A model generated the notes under the pieces. The model was given only the letters and a program-made list of their open reading frames with translations. It searched no databases and was not told the DNA's origin. The position numbers were made by a program, and so were the translations under genes. Positions 20,934 through 33,200 of a stretch of 64,000 nt of DNA are shown in pieces (position 1 is the first letter of the stretch; every line of letters starts with the position of its first letter). The stretch comes from Nitrosospira multiformis (GTDB taxonomy: Bacteria; Pseudomonadota; Gammaproteobacteria; Burkholderiales; Nitrosomonadaceae). The stretch lies in contig NZ_FNKY01000001.1 of the NCBI RefSeq assembly GCF_900103165.1, positions 2,294,001-2,358,000 on the forward strand. The letters are read 5' to 3'.

Positions 20934-21830
20934 ATGCGCCGCTGGATTCTGACCGGAGTATCCGCCTGCGTAGCCGCCATCATACTTGGCGCGATTGGCG
21001 TGGGCGAATTGCTGAGCGGCGCGGCGCCCACCGCCGTGGATTCCCTGTCCGGCCCGGTGTCGTCCGATTTTCCGGTCGAATCCGTGCAGATTCCCCTCAA
21101 TGCCGGCTCCCGTGACGCCGGTTTCGGCGTGCACGGCTGGTTGAGACGCGGCGCACACGGCGGCGGCGTGATATTGCTGGTTCATTCGATCCGCAGCAAT
21201 CGCGTCGAGATGCTTAGCCGGGCCAAATTCCTGAATGCGCGGGGATACAGTGTTCTTCTCATCGATCTTCAGGCGCATGGCGAGACACCCGGCGAACGGA
21301 TCACCTTTGGCGCGCTTGAATCAGAGAATGTGGAGGCCGCCGTGGCCTTTCTGCGAGAGAATTTCCCGTCTGAAAGGATTGCCGCCATTGGCGTTTCGCT
21401 GGGTGCGGCCGCTATCGTGCTGGCGAGCCATCCGTTAAGGCTTGACGCCGTGGTGCTCGAATCGCTGCACCCCACTATTGAAGAAGCCGTCGAAAACCGG
21501 TTGAGACTCCACCTTGGCGAGCTGGGACCGGCGCTTTCCCCGCTCCTGCTATGGCAACTAACGTTTCGCCTGAATATTTCGCCCGAGGCGTTGAATCCCA
21601 TTACCCGCATAGGCGACCTCGATACGCCTTTGCTGCTGATATCCGGCACCGATGATCGGCATACGACTGTCGCGGAAACCAGGCGGTTATTTGAGGCCGC
21701 CCGGCAACCAAAAGAAATGTGGATAGTACCGGGAGGCGGACACTTCAACATGCATGCCTATGCAGGCAGGGAATATGAAGATCGCATACTGGATTTTCTT
21801 GATTCTTATATACGTGAACGGAAGAAATAA
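20934..21830 (+). CDS. Membrane-anchored or exported alpha/beta hydrolase
   Basis: This 298-residue protein starts with a hydrophobic segment (WILTGVSACVAAIILGAIGV) that is either a signal anchor or a signal peptide. The alpha/beta hydrolase triad is visible: nucleophile Ser in GVSLGAA near 153, Asp in ISGTDDRHT and His in PGGGHFN. The oxyanion region is LLVHSIRSNR. It resembles the serine aminopeptidase S33/BAAT-like hydrolases. The substrate is unknown. The promoter and ribosome site are not distinct. Confidence 0.9.
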   Translation: MRRWILTGVSACVAAIILGAIGVGELLSGAAPTAVDSLSGPVSSDFPVESVQIPLNAGSRDAGFGVHGWLRRGAHGGGVILLVHSIRSNRVEMLSRAKFLNARGYSVLLIDLQAHGETPGERITFGALESENVEAAVAFLRENFPSERIAAIGVSLGAAAIVLASHPLRLDAVVLESLHPTIEEAVENRLRLHLGELGPALSPLLLWQLTFRLNISPEALNPITRIGDLDTPLLLISGTDDRHTTVAETRRLFEAARQPKEMWIVPGGGHFNMHAYAGREYEDRILDFLDSYIRERKK

Positions 21831-26720: not shown

Positions 26721-27755
26721 TTAGAATGGGGTCAGGAAAGACACTCCGCCAATACCCACTGCTGAACCATCCCACAGGCGCTGTGCAAACCGGTCTCCCT
26801 GCGTCTCGCTATCGTCGCCGAATACGCGTGCGACCCTGTTCTTATGGAAGCTTGATAATTGCTTCCAGAACGGAATGACAACCGACGTATCGTTCCCATA
26901 CAGCGTCTGATGCAACGTTGGCAGCAGGTGCCAGGGCGTGGTGGGCCTGGCGTGATGCGCATTGTGATACCCGAAGTTGAGAGTGAGCAGATTCAGCCAC
27001 GGATGCTTGATCGAAATCAGGTTGCTGAATGTGTGGGATTCCTCATAGTCCCGGTCGCCCCTGTGCTTGATCAGCTCCGCGCTGTCCGCAAACGCCAGGA
27101 CGCCATAGTTATGCTGGAATGCATCCATGAAACGCAACACGGTCAACAGGATGGTATAAGCCAGCAGATAGCACAGATAGGCCATCGGTGAGTAGAGGAA
27201 CAGCGCCAGAAGCAGGCTGAAGCGGATCACTGCTACCCGCATTATACGCAGCCGTTGATCCTTCTTTTCCTTGAAGACGAATGGAGCAAGGATAAGCACG
27301 CCATGCATGATCAATTCCACGGCGGGCACATATAGCCACTCCAATACCTCTACCATTTTGCGTTGGGCCGGATGCCTGGCAAGATAGCCTCTGTAGTCGA
27401 GCGTCCCCACATCCGCATTATCCACATGGTGCTGCATATGCGTCATACGCAAATCCGCGTACGTGCCGTAACAGCCGCCGCTAAGCCAGTTTAACGCCTT
27501 CCCCACCACGGCATTGTGACACGGCGACTTGAACAAGGTATTGTGCCCGCAGTCATGGATCAAATACGAAGCGATCACCATGCCATGCGCCATGGCGAGC
27601 GTGCCGGCCGCCATCAGGATCGGATTCAACGATAAAATAAGCCCGGCGCCGCCAAAATAAGCCAACTGGCAGTAAAACAGCGCTGAAATGTTCGGCAGCA
27701 GTCCGCCTTGATAGCGAAACCAGGTTTTCTCGATCCTATTAATCATTGTCGTCAC
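26721..27755 (-). CDS. Membrane fatty acid desaturase
   Basis: This 344-residue membrane protein has the three histidine boxes of di-iron desaturases: HDCGH (67-71), HMQHH (106-110) and HNAHH near 275, between several hydrophobic segments (for example LILSLNPILMAAGTLAMAHG). It probably introduces double bonds or hydroxyls into acyl chains at the membrane. The first ATG (MTTMINR) follows GAGGGGTGACGACA; MINR is an alternative start. It is divergent from a small winged-helix regulator, with a 24-bp near-perfect palindrome in between, so desaturase expression is probably controlled by that regulator. Confidence 0.92.
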   Translation of the reverse strand: MTTMINRIEKTWFRYQGGLLPNISALFYCQLAYFGGAGLILSLNPILMAAGTLAMAHGMVIASYLIHDCGHNTLFKSPCHNAVVGKALNWLSGGCYGTYADLRMTHMQHHVDNADVGTLDYRGYLARHPAQRKMVEVLEWLYVPAVELIMHGVLILAPFVFKEKKDQRLRIMRVAVIRFSLLLALFLYSPMAYLCYLLAYTILLTVLRFMDAFQHNYGVLAFADSAELIKHRGDRDYEESHTFSNLISIKHPWLNLLTLNFGYHNAHHARPTTPWHLLPTLHQTLYGNDTSVVIPFWKQLSSFHKNRVARVFGDDSETQGDRFAQRLWDGSAVGIGGVSFLTPF

Positions 27756-27905: not shown

Positions 27906-28325
27906 ATGAGAATGAGCAAACCCGATAGACCCGCGAATGCAAGACGCCGTGAGTTTATTCAATTACTGAACAGCACGGATCAATACTGGATGGATGTCCT
28001 GGGAGACAAGCTCTTCCATGACTTGAACTACTACGATCTTTTTACGCAGATGTGGTTGCGGCTGGACGGAACGACACGAGACACTTTTTATAAATCCGAG
28101 CTGCATCAACTCATGCCGAACATCAGTCAACGCACTGCCATCAAATATATTCAGATTGCAATCGATCATGGCTTGCTCATCGAGCACATGGATCCGGAAG
28201 ATCTCCGCTCCAGACAAATAACCATGTCCGCCGGTCTCAAGAAAAAAATCGAGCTTTTTCTGGATTATTCCATTTCGGTATTCGAAGTGTTCCCCTTGCC
28301 GGTTTCCCGGCGACACAATTCTTGA
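27906..28325 (+). CDS. Small winged-helix-type regulator, divergent from desaturase
   Basis: This 139-residue protein resembles a MarR-like winged helix: a helical N-terminus (YYDLFTQMWLRL), a helix-turn-helix-like segment (SELHQLMPNISQRTAIKYIQIAIDHGLL) and a possible wing (DPEDLRSRQITMSAGLKKKI). The family assignment is inferred from layout rather than a diagnostic motif. It is divergent from the desaturase and a strong palindrome lies between them, which suggests it represses both. The start is ATG 27906 or ATG 27912. Confidence 0.7.
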   Translation: MRMSKPDRPANARRREFIQLLNSTDQYWMDVLGDKLFHDLNYYDLFTQMWLRLDGTTRDTFYKSELHQLMPNISQRTAIKYIQIAIDHGLLIEHMDPEDLRSRQITMSAGLKKKIELFLDYSISVFEVFPLPVSRRHNS

Positions 28326-28574
28326 AGTGGGTGATGGTGATGTGCTTGAAACGCAGGTACCCGCAGGCCGAGTTAGCATAGTGCCGGCCGGCATCCGGCA
28401 AGCACCCATGACATAATCTATACATACGTATACCATAGTGCAGCGATATCGCGTGTGGCCGCTTCATTCCCAGTCAGCCGTCACAGCCCTTTGAGAATCC
28501 CATAAGCCGGGCCATATTGTCTTGCAATACTTTTCCGGTTACATTCATCAGACGCGATTCAGAAAAGTCCCTGC

Positions 28575-28602
28575 TTGATTTCCTGAAGATCTTTTCTATA
28601 CT
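28575..28602 (+). promoter_or_regulatory. Candidate sigma-70 promoter of the graspetide operon
   Basis: TTGATT (28575-28580) and TATACT (28597-28602) are separated by 16 bp, about 55 bp before the precursor ATG. The 28326-28574 stretch upstream shows no other gene. Confidence 0.5.
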
Positions 28603-28657
28603 TGTACTCGTCACGCCGATTAATGTTGATGTCATTCCATTTCAAAAGGAGATAATC

Positions 28658-29212
28658 ATGGCGAAGGAAAAAAGATCAGAAAACGTCACTACGCTGGTTC
28701 TGGGTGAAGAAAACATACTGACAACCAGGGCGGTGGGTGAGGAAGCGCCAATGACCACACTCGCGATAGGCGAAGAGGACAAGAGCTTGAAGGAAAAGGA
28801 CCAGTTTACAACCCTGGTGCTGGGTGAGGAAAGTCCGGCCACCAAGGTTCCCAAGGGAACCAAAGCCAGGCTGCTGCCGACAACGAAACCTAAAGGTGAA
28901 GAGGGCCCAACGCCCACGACACTCGCGATAGGTGAAGAGGGGCCTACCACGCTGCTTAAAGGTGAGGAGAATCCGACTACCAGGGCAAAAGGCGAAGAAG
29001 GTCCTCAGACGACCTTCGCTCTCGGTGAGGAAGGTCCATCCACCCTCCTGAAAGGGGAAGAGAGTCCGTCGACCGGGGAAAAGGGTGAAGAAATACCCGC
29101 CCCCACTACCAAGCTAAAGGGTGAGGAAGGTCTTACAACACTGGTCGTTGGAGAGGAAGGCAAGGGTACCAAGGGAGGGCCCGGCGAGGGCAATCCGTTC
29201 GGCGAATTCTGA
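28658..29212 (+). CDS. Multi-core graspetide-like (omega-ester RiPP) precursor
   Basis: This 184-residue protein is built from thirteen copies of an eight-residue core [T/S]TxxxGEE at residues 11-18, 22-29, 33-40, 51-58, 75-82, 87-94, 97-104, 107-114, 118-125, 128-135, 138-145, 150-157 and 160-167. Eleven have TT and two have ST. The spacing is mostly 2-4 residues (often GP or NP), with longer spacers 41-50 and 59-74. Plesiocin-type graspetides have TTxxxxEE cores, in which ATP-grasp ligases link Thr hydroxyls to Glu carboxylates. Only ten residues precede core 1, so there is almost no leader. The start is ATG 28658 because AAAAGGAGATAATC lies directly before it; an upstream frame to 28517 is rejected. 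Its stop overlaps the ligase start (TGATG). Function inferred from architecture. Confidence 0.85.
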   Translation: MAKEKRSENVTTLVLGEENILTTRAVGEEAPMTTLAIGEEDKSLKEKDQFTTLVLGEESPATKVPKGTKARLLPTTKPKGEEGPTPTTLAIGEEGPTTLLKGEENPTTRAKGEEGPQTTFALGEEGPSTLLKGEESPSTGEKGEEIPAPTTKLKGEEGLTTLVVGEEGKGTKGGPGEGNPFGEF

Positions 29213-30093
29213 TGCTGCTTATTTCGGGCGGGGAACATGACCCCAATATTGCGCATCTGCTCAAGATCACACGCAAGCGCAAGATACCTACCTCGAAAAT
29301 CTTGTTTGGACCCAATACGCATCCCTCGATACATTGGGATATTCAAGCCAACCGGTTGCTGCTTGACGGCATGCAGCTTGAGCCGGGTGCGGCATTTCTA
29401 CGCTATGACGTATTCAATCATATGGCAGACGCCCGCGAGCAAACAGCTTTTCGCGCTCATGCCTGGTACGCCGCGATTGCGGGCTGGATTGCCTCGCGGA
29501 TCGATATACGCGCCTTCAACAGAAATGGAGAACCCAATGTCCTGAAGCCCGCCATTCTGCGCATGGCGTTGGAGTCAGGCATGAACGTTCCGCGTTCGCT
29601 GATATCGAATGACATTGAAAGAATTAATGAAGAAACCGGCGGTGACTTCACGAAATGGATCGGCAAGCCGGTTTGCGGGGGCGAATACACGCAGATACTG
29701 GACGATTTGATAGGGAAAGTCGCGCAGCGCGGAGGCGCGGCGGCGGCACCCGCCATTATCCAGGAGCGGCTGGTCTCGCCTGACGTCAGGATATTCCGTG
29801 TGGGCAAGGAATTCATGGCGTTCGGGATTGAATCAAAAGAAATCGATTACCGGGTGGATAGCGCCTGCAAATTGTCAATGATCGCGAGCCCGCCGAAACA
29901 ACTGACCCGGCAATTGAAACGATTAACCGATCGCATCGGCCTCAATTTTGCGGCGGCAGACTATAAAACGTGTGGCGACACGGGAAAATTGAAATTTCTT
30001 GAGGTGAATACCGCGCCGATGTTCGTTGCATTCGACCGTGCGGGAAAAGGCTCAATTACGGACGCAATGTTGCATTTTCTTCTGCACCCGTAA
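29212..30093 (+). CDS. ATP-grasp ligase, graspetide (PsnB/MvdD-like) maturase
   Basis: The 293-residue protein shows ATP-grasp hallmarks: the ATP-binding Lys in IGKPVCGGEYTQIL, the IIQERLVSPDVRIFRVG strand typical of MvdD/PsnB-type ligases, and the metal-binding end D-x-K...FLEVNTAPMFVAFD. It shares a TGATG overlap with the precursor gene, so it is translationally coupled and is its likely partner. The expected chemistry is ATP-dependent formation of side-chain esters between Thr/Ser and Glu in the cores. There is no obvious protease domain or exporter in this gene or next to it. The assignment to the graspetide class rests on the partner's cores and the domain type. Confidence 0.88.
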   Translation: MLLISGGEHDPNIAHLLKITRKRKIPTSKILFGPNTHPSIHWDIQANRLLLDGMQLEPGAAFLRYDVFNHMADAREQTAFRAHAWYAAIAGWIASRIDIRAFNRNGEPNVLKPAILRMALESGMNVPRSLISNDIERINEETGGDFTKWIGKPVCGGEYTQILDDLIGKVAQRGGAAAAPAIIQERLVSPDVRIFRVGKEFMAFGIESKEIDYRVDSACKLSMIASPPKQLTRQLKRLTDRIGLNFAAADYKTCGDTGKLKFLEVNTAPMFVAFDRAGKGSITDAMLHFLLHP

Positions 30094-30120
30094 AACATTT
30101 GATTCATGAAGCACCTGCAG

Positions 30121-30144
30121 GGCGGGTTAGCGTCGCGTAATACG
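30121..30144. repeat. Degenerate copy of the dispersed repeat
   Basis: GGCGGGTTAGCGTCGCGTAA resembles the left part of GGGTTAGCGTAGCGTAACCC but lacks the complementary end. It lies between the ligase and treS. Confidence 0.35.
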
Positions 30145-30214
30145 ATAATCCAGGCAGGTGGAAAACTGTTCAATAACACCTGTCTGCCCGCTTCAGCAAT
30201 GCCGGCACTCCAGT

Positions 30215-33200
30215 ATGGAAAAAAAGAACACCATGGAACAAGAAGACGACCCGCTTTGGTACAAGGACGCCATCATCTATGAGCTGCACGTCAAGACGTT
30301 CTTTGACAGCAATGGTGATGGCATTGGAGATTTTCCGGGCCTGATCTCCAAACTCGACTATCTGCAGGAGCTGGGCGTCAACACGCTCTGGCTGCTGCCG
30401 TTCTATCCCTCGCCGGGGCGCGATGACGGCTACGACATCGCCGACTATCACAACATTCATCCCGCGGTTGGCGAGATGGCGGATTTCCGCAAGTTTATCG
30501 ACGAAGCGCATCTCCGCGGCTTGCGCGTGATCACCGAGCTGGTAATCAACCACACTTCGGATCAGCATCCCTGGTTCCAGGCGGCGCGGTGTTCGCCGCC
30601 GGGTTCAAGCAAGCGGGACTTCTACGTCTGGAGCGACACCGATTCCCGATACAGCGGAACCCGCATCATCTTCAATGACACGGAGAAATCCAACTGGACG
30701 TGGGATGAGGAAGCAAAGGCTTATTACTGGCATCGCTTCTTCTCGCACCAGCCGGATCTGAATTTTGCCAATCCGCATGTATTCAAGGCAATCATGCATG
30801 TGATGAGATTCTGGCTCGACGCCGGGGTGGATGGTATGCGCCTGGACGCGATGCCCTATCTATGCGAACGCGAGGGTACCAGCAACGAGAACCTGCCGGA
30901 AACCCACGCGGTAATCAGACGCATGCGCGCCGAACTGGATCAACACTACCCCAACCGCATGTTCCTGGCGGAGGCGAACCAGTGGCCGGAAGATGTACGC
31001 GAGTATTTTGGAGACGGCGACGAATGCCATATGGCCTTCCACTTTCCCCTCATGCCGCGCATGTACATGGCCATTGCGCAGGAAGACCGGCATCCGGTCG
31101 TGGAAATCATGGAGCAGACGCCGGACATCCCGGACAATTGCCAATGGGCGGTGTTCCTGCGCAATCATGACGAACTGACCCTGGAAATGGTCACCGATCG
31201 CGAACGGGACTATCTCAACCAGACTTACGCGATTAACCCTGACGCGCGCCTCAATCTGGGCATCTGCCGCCGCCTCGCGCCGCTGCTTGAAAACGATCGG
31301 CATCGTATTGAGCTGATGAGCCTGCTGCTCATGACCATGCCGGGCTCGCCGATCCTCTATTATGGCGATGAGATCGGCATGGGTGACAATTTCCTGCTTG
31401 GCGACCGCAATGGTGTCCGCACACCCATGCAGTGGCGCGGAGAGCTTAATGGCGGCTTTTCCACCGCTGAACCTGATCGTCTGTTTCAACCGCTCATTGT
31501 CGATCCTGTCTATGGCTTCGGCGCGGTAAACGTGGAGTCGCAACAGCGCAACGCTTCCTCACTGCTCAACTGGATGCGCCGGTTGATTGCCATGCGCAAG
31601 GCGCAACGCGCCTTCGGTCGCGGCACGCTCAGCTTTCTGCGGCCGGGCAATCGCAAGATACTTGCCTATCTGCGCGAATACGAAGATGAAATCATCCTGT
31701 GCGTGGCCAATCTGTCACGCGCGCCACAGGCGGTAGAACTGGATTTGAGTCCTTTCAAGGGCCGGGTGCCGGTGGAATTGATGGGCCGCAGCAAGTTTCC
31801 CCCCATCGGCCAATTGCCGTATCTGCTCACCTTGAGCGGCCACGGGTTTTATGCCTTCCGTCTGGCCACGGATGTGGAGGCGCCGGCCTGGCACGAAGAG
31901 CGCCCGGTACCCCCGGATCTGCCCGTGCTGATACTGGTAGACCTGGGATGGCACACCCTTTTTGGGCACACTGAGGACCGTGAGGGTGTGAACCAGCTGA
32001 TGGTGCGCCGCGCGCGGGACCAGCTGGAGCGGCAGATCATTCCACGCTACTTCCGCTCCCAGCCATGGTTCCTGGATAAAGATGCGGCGACGGAGAAATT
32101 CGAGCTTGGCGAGATGAGTGAGTGGTCCACGGAATCCGGCAGCTGGCTGCTGGCCACCGCGGTGTTGACACTCACCAATGGTGAATCGCATCGCTACGCC
32201 ATTCCGCTGGCGCTGGCGTGGGAGGATGAGGACGAGAACCGTATCAGTGCGCTGCTGCATGCTACGCTGGCTAAGGTACGGCGGCGCGCGCGCATGGGGA
32301 TCCTGTTCGACGCATTCTGGGACGACGCATTCTGCCGCACGGTGGTATCGAGCATGGAGTGTGGCTCAACCGTGCCGTTTGGCGGCGGGCAGTTGCAGTT
32401 CGGGGCGACTCTTGCCTTCCCCGGCTTCGCCTATCCAGCGGATACGGCGACGGTGACGCGTACCGTATCCGAGCGCGGACGTCTGGTGGTGAACCTGGGT
32501 GATCACCTGGTGCTGAAGGGCTACCGTTGGTTGCTTCCAGGGGTGCACCCGGAGCTGGAAGTATCGCGATTCCTCACGGAGACGGCGAAGTTTACCCACA
32601 TGACCCCACTGGCGGGCACGGCGGAGTACTCGGACGGCGGCGAGGGACATCGTTCAACGCTTGCGATCCTGGAGCGCTACGGCGAGAACCAGGGCAATGC
32701 CTGGACTTATACGCTGGACTACCTGGAGCGTTTCCTGGACGAGTGTCTCGCACGGCCGGAGCACCCTCCGGATGCGCGCCATGCCGTTTACATGGATCTG
32801 ATCAGGACCCTGGGCCTGCGCACGGCGGAATTTCATCAGGCGCTCGCACTACCCGGCGCCGCCGGTGCTCCTGATGCCATCGATGCCATCGATGCATTTG
32901 GCAGCGAGCCCATCACAGCGGACGACATTGCCGCATGGGTGAACAGTGTGCACATACAGATGGGCGCGATGTACAAGCTGCTGGAAGCGGAATTGCCGTG
33001 GCTGCCTGAGCCGGTGCAGCCGACAGGCAACGATCTGGTGGCGGCCCGGCCCAGGCTCTACCGGCGCATCATGCACGCGGCAACCCTGCATCCCGAGGCA
33101 ACTGGTGCCGCCAAGGCACGCTATCATGGTGACTACCATCTCGGCCAGGTATGGCTTTCAAGTAACGATTTCCTGATTACCAACTATGGTGGCGAACCTG

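Follow-up and report, generated by a model that had tools for sequence, protein, structure and literature searches.

Plesiocin (PsnA2/PsnB) belongs to group 2 of the graspetides; its precursor has a leader and tandem hairpin cores of the form TTxxxxEE, all of its linkages are made by one ATP-grasp enzyme, and its protease specificity is set by the residue following TT. A gene pair with similar cores is present in a stretch of 64,000 nucleotides from Nitrosospira multiformis, a member of a group of ammonia-oxidising bacteria (contig NZ_FNKY01000001.1, positions 2,294,001 to 2,358,000); this stretch is called the window in the following. It consists of a precursor gene with 13 cores and a gene for an ATP-grasp enzyme, which we likewise predict to make all linkages on its own. 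The plesiocin precursor, in contrast, contains four repeats, each of which carries two esters (PMC12291112). Characterised graspetides are formed by activation of glutamate side chains, which are then attacked by threonine or serine hydroxyls (PMC8939145, PMC12291112), and as of 2022 those characterised were all protease inhibitors according to PMC8939145. For plesiocin, potency is reported to climb with the number of cyclised motifs (PMC13097080).

An N-terminal leader is usual in graspetides, and a Phhx(1,2)h motif occurs in the leader of about half of the precursors (PMC8939145). An NHLM-type transporter shows a high co-occurrence with plesiocin group 2, without being a defining trait (PMC13097080). 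In the same source, long precursors built of repeating motifs are described as common in groups 34 and 35, and group 35 as composed of synthetase and precursor only; the window pair resembles these groups by description. Several cores and a quasi-core per chain, modified by a distributive enzyme, are described for the microviridin pair AMdnA/AMdnC (PMC5934393), but AMdnA, unlike the window precursor, has three cores, a leader peptide and microviridin topology. Our literature search found no paper that combines Nitrosospira and graspetides.

The gene pair and its conservation in Nitrosospira

We consider it likely that the two genes form one translationally coupled graspetide unit, in which Thr/Ser-Glu esters would be formed within the cores, the NPFG tail of the precursor would be used for recognition and the whole chain would be the product, probably a multi-headed inhibitor. 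The precursor of 184 residues carries 13 [T/S]TxxxGEE cores, as the first-pass annotation of this DNA had claimed, and 20,000 shuffles of the same composition gave a mean motif count of 0.022 and a maximum of 2. Eleven cores read TTxxxGEE and two STxxxGEE; this count leaves out two degenerate stretches, at residues 61-69 and at 168-178. The cores start at residues 11, 22, 33, 51, 75, 87, 97, 107, 118, 128, 138, 150 and 160, thus 10-12 residues apart with the exception of two gaps of 18 and 24, and 10 of the 12 linkers are only 2-4 residues long. From core 1 to core 13, TT is followed by L, R, L, L, K, L, L, R, F, L, G, K and L (seven Leu, two Arg, two Lys, one Phe and one Gly). The precursor is acidic (calculated pI 4.7), has a calculated mass of 19,086.0 Da when unmodified and lacking the first Met, and had no match in the PDB even at E<=10. 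Pfam at E<=1 gave no family for the precursor, the ATP-grasp enzyme or a neighbouring open reading frame (ORF) of 139 residues.

The overlap between the genes, which had also been noticed before, amounts to one shared base, the A of the precursor TGA (29210-29212) and of the ligase ATG (29212-29214). Both ATP-grasp motifs given at that time, IIQERLVSPDVRIFRVG and FLEVNTAPMF, are present in the 293-residue product of the second gene.

The precursor does not have the usual graspetide leader, which is a non-defining trait. Since only ten residues precede the first core and since the orthologue of genome G021 has an in-frame TAA two codons ahead of the precursor ATG, there is no shared N-terminal leader. 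In the window, the frame stays open upstream until a stop at the 74th codon before the ATG and includes a possible TTG start at 28517, and in the genome NpAV it is open for 26 codons ahead of the ATG; a hidden leader common to the orthologues is ruled out by the TAA in G021.

The pair was found by a precursor search in 3 of 23 Nitrosospira genomes, namely the window genome (G000, 3.5 Mb in 2 contigs, with one full enzyme copy), G021 and NpAV, with 13, 12 and 13 cores, respectively. To judge from the pairwise ratios of nonsynonymous to synonymous substitution rates (dN/dS) between the three, which are 0.098, 0.087 and 0.052 for the precursor and 0.103, 0.139 and 0.148 for the enzyme, the gene pair is under purifying selection. 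Across the three species, T1, T2, G6 and E7 are unchanged in all 13 columns and E8 is changed in one, with codon variation at T1, T2, G6, E7 and E8 in 7, 6, 5, 6 and 3 of the 13 columns. Positions x3-x5 differ in 8 of 39 columns, the linkers in 13 of 72 and the last eight residues in two. Amino acid changes at the T/T/G/E/E positions (1/65) are thus rarer than at x3-x5 and in the linkers together (21/111; Fisher p 0.0006, on three sequences only). The residue following TT varies between species at three cores (R/K twice, K/N once). The core sequence specific to each array position is retained between species with few changes, and therefore the copies are not being homogenised.

The ATP-grasp enzyme, its clade and the partner proteins

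By its sequence profiles and its predicted structure, the enzyme is of the graspetide kind, with PsnB from plesiocin as the nearest solved structure. The best NCBIfam model was TIGR04187 (2.4e-16, 59.8 bits), followed by the MvdC, MvdD and grasp-with-spasm models; these four, the only matches below 1e-3, all stand for ATP-grasp peptide maturases, and at E<=1 there was neither a RimK family model nor a glutathione synthetase model among the NCBIfam matches. A single-sequence search of the PDB gave 7drm (9.8e-15). With a seven-row profile, only six proteins were matched at E<=1e-6, the five graspetide synthetases PsnB (7drm, 5.5e-33), MdnB, MdnC, AMdnB and CdnC as well as PruB (the five besides PsnB with the entries 9bou, 5ig8, 5ig9, 7m4s and 7mgv). 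A further plesiocin entry, 7drn, contains PsnB with PsnA2. The AlphaFold2 model, built with 16 relatives, reached a mean predicted local distance difference test score (pLDDT) of 84.7 and a predicted TM-score (pTM) of 0.84. Foldseek placed 14 PsnB chains on top (best 7dro, E 2.7e-21, query TM-score (TMq) 0.78), then AMdnB, one more PsnB chain, PruB and MdnC; ArgX/LysX appear from rank 23, CdnC at 32 and RimK at 34, and the RimK chains among the 50 matches listed have TMq values of 0.60-0.68 as compared to 0.78 for PsnB. K152, D212, R214, D250, E264 and N266, which we take to have catalytic roles, do not vary among seven clade members and are matched by corresponding residues of PsnB.

In a tree of 47 rows, all 37 non-RimK rows split at 100/100 from ten RimK rows, each of which passes the RimK family cut-off. 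With this split and no RimK model at E<=1, a RimK-like identity was set aside. Clustering with RimK, named beforehand as an outcome that would speak against a graspetide ligase, was thus not found, in trees that contained no glutathione synthetase rows. The window enzyme belongs to a clade of 16 rows (100/100), composed of three Nitrosospira enzymes, five from another class of the same phylum and eight from viral contigs. A second tree with PsnB added (a single sequence, residues 27-330 of the chain) and five rows omitted (other_L045, other_L047, other_L049, Halorussus_2 and RimKlike_L034) kept the clade (100/99), with PsnB outside. Eight of 20 viral enzymes are included in the trees; G1573, G1574, L048 and 8 of the 18 RimK-like loci are in neither.

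The first-pass annotation had called the locus a plesiocin-type graspetide locus. Its graspetide part is supported by profiles, PDB matches, fold and tree, which place a graspetide-type synthetase beside a multi-core precursor. Membership in plesiocin group 2 is not borne out, since the enzyme lies in a separate clade without PsnB, and the precursor is leaderless; an NHLM-type transporter was not found among the 12 flanking ORFs scanned with Pfam. We therefore speak of a graspetide pair with plesiocin-like cores, whose membership in the PsnB group is not supported.

The relatives were collected in several searches, with matches in 4 of 121 genomes of relatives (G056 weak and partial), 5 of 369 of the class and 10 of 399 of the order. 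In the phylum, 135 of 398 genomes had a match, many of the weaker ones being RimK proteins, and the 30 best were fetched. Searches with G761 gave matches in 4 of 149 genomes of its family, 5 of 289 of its class and 3 of 7 of its genus, and the G1285 genus in its only genome. The clade relatives score like the window enzyme against NCBIfam.

The partner proteins in the clade differ in architecture. G761, G1573 and G1574, all from one genus, encode an N-terminal region and, in each case, 15 TxxxGE[ED]-type motifs, of which 11 read [TS][TS]xxxGEE, and one relative embeds its cores in a protein of 315 residues with an N-terminal region. The G1285 precursor has an N-terminal region related to that of G761 and an array interrupted by N. 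In G1224, two cores sit in a putative lipoprotein; the G1225 gene, within which the contig ends, encodes at least eight, and in G1402 seven cores follow what we read as a Nif11-type leader. Thirteen cores, which had been regarded as exceptional, are therefore not a record, as three relatives have 15 and long repeat precursors have been published (PMC13097080). Size alone is not new, and a graspetide with plesiocin-like cores belongs to a type already described. The possible novelty is that a separate enzyme clade, substrates lacking a leader and a PFG tail at the C-terminus occur together.

A locus was scored as having a core array if an ORF stretch contained at least two [TS]xxxGE[ED] motifs. 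This was the case for all nine further bacterial loci (seven with enzymes of the tree clade and two same-genus copies of G761), for 8 of 20 viral loci and for one of two TTxxxGEE loci outside the clade, as compared to 0 of 18 RimK-like, 0 of 17 other ATP-grasp, 0 of 22 treS-like and 0 of 22 139-residue-ORF loci as controls. Among the 18 RimK-like loci, 17 score above the RimK family cut-off, with L041 outside that check; L005, L009, L010 and L069-L071 (no array seen) and L033 (graspetide-type ligase, no GEE array) stand outside all control groups. Such cores, in precursors with N-terminal extensions, also occur at two loci whose enzymes fall outside the clade, L007 with three (TTxxx[G/S]EE) and L008 with one, and so this type of core is wider than the clade. 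Two apparent export signals were read by eye in core-bearing precursors: L066:4642-5091 starts with an apparent lipobox, GVASGC, and the minus-strand precursor of L008 with an apparent Sec signal peptide, AVLPLLVSVPAEA. They suggest that some stapled chains are exported via general secretion.

At 10 of the 20 enzyme-bearing loci on IMG/VR contigs, the enzyme gene stands directly before a gene for a large protein with 1-7 Txxx[G/P]E[EDN] cores (for instance KTMAVGEDD or TTMAYGEE), two of the ten having a single core. The core protein of L086 is kin to gp25 of the marine phage HMO-2011, and none of five phage homologues checked of 27 records (HMO-2011, CRP-1, CRP-345, CRP-2 and HTVC103P) has a core. 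This points to phage proteins acquiring arrays of ester staples along with the enzyme. A viral enzyme had no match at E<=1e-5 in 50,697 phage records, the query P0002 had none in the phage records, and a viral core protein had none in PHROGs. In 72,556 plasmid records, P0002 matched once, in Halorussus at a locus with no core array, and the G761 enzyme once, in Halocatena. The ligase alignment A3 fitted 60 stretches of the viral contigs, none a relative; for A5, 20 of 40 stretches were retained as viral enzyme relatives.

Predicted product and alternative explanations

By analogy with the characterised graspetides, the enzyme would activate core Glu side chains with ATP and join them to core Thr/Ser hydroxyls, which would give up to two nested esters per TTxxxGEE hairpin and a maximum of 26 on the 184-residue chain (-468 Da). 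A Lys at x3 or x5 might also yield amides. Most likely, it would grip the chain by its C-terminal NPFG tail, acting as a follower, and then take the cores one after another. The product is probably the whole stapled polypeptide, the simplest assumption because there is no leader to remove and no linked peptidase or transporter. It would most likely act as a multi-headed serine-protease inhibitor, in which the residue following TT would set the target of each head.

All three Nitrosospira precursors end in NPFGE[FY], and [N/T]PFG is found within the last six residues of 7 of 10 clade precursors (the three Nitrosospira ones, G761, G1573, G1574 and G1285). The four from the other proteobacterial class end in NPFGRR or, in G1285, TPFGRR. 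By composition, the chance of PFG in the last seven residues is 0.0013 for the window precursor and 0.0048 for that of G761, for a motif picked post hoc. A short PFG-containing recognition sequence on the C-terminal side is also described for fuscimiditide ThfA, whose 67-residue leader functions when moved to the C-terminus and has RPFG as key recognition tetrapeptide (PMC13003496). That C-terminal leader is engineered and belongs to an actinobacterial graspimiditide, whereas the PFG tail in the window is natural and a candidate in function. The likeness, a match of three residues in few lineages, suggests that the [N/T]PFG tail is a natural follower for enzyme recognition. To our knowledge, recognition by a C-terminal follower is otherwise known in graspetides only through engineering.

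Several observations weigh against parts of this interpretation. The window enzyme scores far under the curated NCBIfam cut-offs (59.8 vs 350 bits for TIGR04187), and three of four scanned clade relatives also have a weak match to a RimK model (7.5e-6 to 7.3e-4), which in each case ranks below TIGR04187. In G021, core 11 has GEG in place of GEE, with E8 lost. The tail is missing from the precursors of G1224, G1225 and G1402, the last of which has an ordinary-looking leader, and PFG is present in none of ten viral core proteins, two of which are cut. The seven precursors with the tail represent three lineages, two of them sisters, and the last eight residues are not less variable among the three Nitrosospira species (2/8) than the linkers (13/72), with NPFGE being fixed. 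As RPFG comes from another graspetide group, its likeness to NPFG may be a coincidence. No core array was found in the available DNA of 10 of the 20 viral enzyme loci (L073-L077, L082, L083, L088, L091 and L092, five of them listed ORF by ORF), and the control loci measure about 3-4 kb, as compared to 6.5-10 kb for four of the nine clade loci. Finally, the present evidence links the predicted product to no protease.

A wider reading holds that the clade staples arrays of ester hairpins within full-length leaderless proteins, i.e. bacterial chains, a putative lipoprotein and phage proteins, in part via a natural C-terminal [N/T]PFG follower, and that these are not classical RiPPs (ribosomally synthesised and post-translationally modified peptides). 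We regard it as possible but rather doubtful, because the last eight residues vary no less than the linkers and because PFG is in no viral core protein; the phage substrates must be recognised by other means.

The pair could also be a classical multi-core RiPP system, in which the enzyme reads the cores, the linkers or the first ten residues and an unlinked protease frees up to 13 bicyclic hairpins. The mostly short linkers, several of which are alike (GP, NP, SP), would fit such an excision, as would the three cores on the single AMdnA substrate (PMC5934393) and the typical position of C39-type leader peptidases outside graspetide loci (PMC8939145). However, no cleavage motif common to all linkers was seen by eye, each array position retains its own core sequence across three species, and the C-terminal NPFGE is fixed in all three, so that we hold the release of single hairpins to be unlikely. 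We think it improbable, too, that the stapled acidic chain is a structural or osmotic-stress protein, its staples stabilising the protein, instead of an inhibitor. This idea takes support from the position of the pair upstream of treS-like, other alpha-amylase-family and glucanotransferase genes in the window, and from relatives whose cores sit in larger proteins. Yet the genomes G005 and G004 have the treS neighbourhood without the pair and NpAV has its treS-like gene on another contig, and therefore the neighbourhood says little.

That the enzyme is a RimK-like side-chain ligase, which adds amino acids such as glutamate to the GEE glutamates and closes no ring, seems very improbable to us. 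The common ATP-grasp fold, with RimK chains matching the model, and the weak RimK matches among the clade relatives speak for it, but the window enzyme itself has no such match at E<=1, it is split at 100/100 from RimK rows that all pass the family cut-off, and the core Thr and Gly are kept as strictly as the Glu. Practically negligible is the chance of a decaying or fortuitous repeat without function: the pair is present in only 3 of 23 Nitrosospira genomes, but both frames are intact in all three, both genes have dN/dS values of 0.05-0.15 and the promoter hexamers are identical.

If the tail is a follower in the coupled graspetide unit that we favour, it would be a natural precedent for the construct of PMC13003496 and would leave the N-terminus of graspetide substrates free for fusions. 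Should the whole chain be the product, a single gene pair would give rise to a 19-kDa protein bearing as many as 26 esters, which would help to study how one enzyme acts on many sites and how multivalency determines inhibitor potency. The clade also links bacterial pairs with viral contigs that bear core arrays.

Genomic surroundings and related loci

The flanks are collinear up to the pair from a desaturase gene (26721-27755) and the 139-residue ORF, the latter being found in 22 of 23 Nitrosospira genomes. Between this ORF and the pair, G021 has a divergent tyrosinase gene (Pfam PF00264) with a homologue in NpAV, where the window has only about 100 unmatched bases. Homology of the window with both genomes resumes at 28574, at the candidate promoter, whose spacer differs at two positions among the three; promoter-like sites number 5 per 2 kb scanned vs 1.3 expected. 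Downstream of the pair follows a treS-like gene in the window and G021, and in NpAV an ORF that we read as glutamine-synthetase-like. In G005, the 139-residue ORF and treS are about 0.9 kb apart, and in G004 the two are separated by a gene for a 1,197-residue DUF748 protein. The interval 28325-30230 from the 139-residue ORF to treS (also L148 and L149) is thus a variable site in Nitrosospira, and the neighbouring genes are therefore unlikely to belong to the pair. The 12 flanking ORFs scanned with Pfam gave ordinary families or none, with no RiPP transporter and no dedicated leader peptidase; the nearest peptidase-like match among them is an alpha/beta hydrolase at 20934-21830.

Table 1 Features of the gene pair in the window and viral core proteins on IMG/VR contigs
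Feature	Position	Strand	Basis or remark
Sigma-70-like promoter TTGATT-N16-TATACT	28575..28602	+	Consensus match only; hexamers identical in three genomes
Shine-Dalgarno-like AAGGAGA ahead of the precursor ATG	28646..28652	+	Direct reading
Precursor, 184 aa, 13 [T/S]TxxxGEE cores, no N-terminal leader	28658..29212	+	Direct reading, orthologue comparison
Core array, first through last of 13 cores, including the degenerate stretch 28838-28864	28688..29158	+	Motif positions
Degenerate Gly-rich stretch GKGTKGGPGEG after the last core	29159..29191	+	Direct reading
C-terminal NPFGEF, candidate follower (recognition tag)	29192..29209	+	Comparison with relatives; putative function
Graspetide-type ATP-grasp synthetase, 293 aa, short pre-ATP-grasp domain	29212..30093	+	Profiles, tree, predicted structure
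Viral core proteins	L078:906-3344, L079:869-2440, L080:4686-7871, L081:832-2445, L084:4651-6603		IMG/VR
Viral core proteins (continued)	L085:3507-5459, L086:4686-7874, L087:2063-4075, L089:3276-5591, L090:4686-5690		IMG/VR

The N-terminal region of the G761 precursor has a coreless homologue at L093:4001-4651 on the plasmid pMspAR10a of Mesorhizobium sp. AR10 (33.9%, E 4e-6, covering query residues 2-99), as part of a series of genes that also encode a tyrosinase, a cytochrome P460, a YCF48-related protein, an M4 peptidase and emfourin; G021 and NpAV likewise have a tyrosinase gene, in divergent orientation, next to the pair. At L016, L017 and L019 (G833, G739 and G750), the enzymes form a related group (100/97), with upstream ORFs that we read as LuxR-like and, in L016 and L017, as ABC-transporter-like; the short precursors contain one core-like stretch each (ITLAIGED, TQAIGEN and TQALGET). 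At L020, L021, L023, L025 and L027, the ATP-grasp genes, whose products form one 100/100 group, are preceded by two or three tandem genes for small Gly-rich proteins with the common C-terminus DNTSIG[D/T]I[N/S]I[S/T]S.

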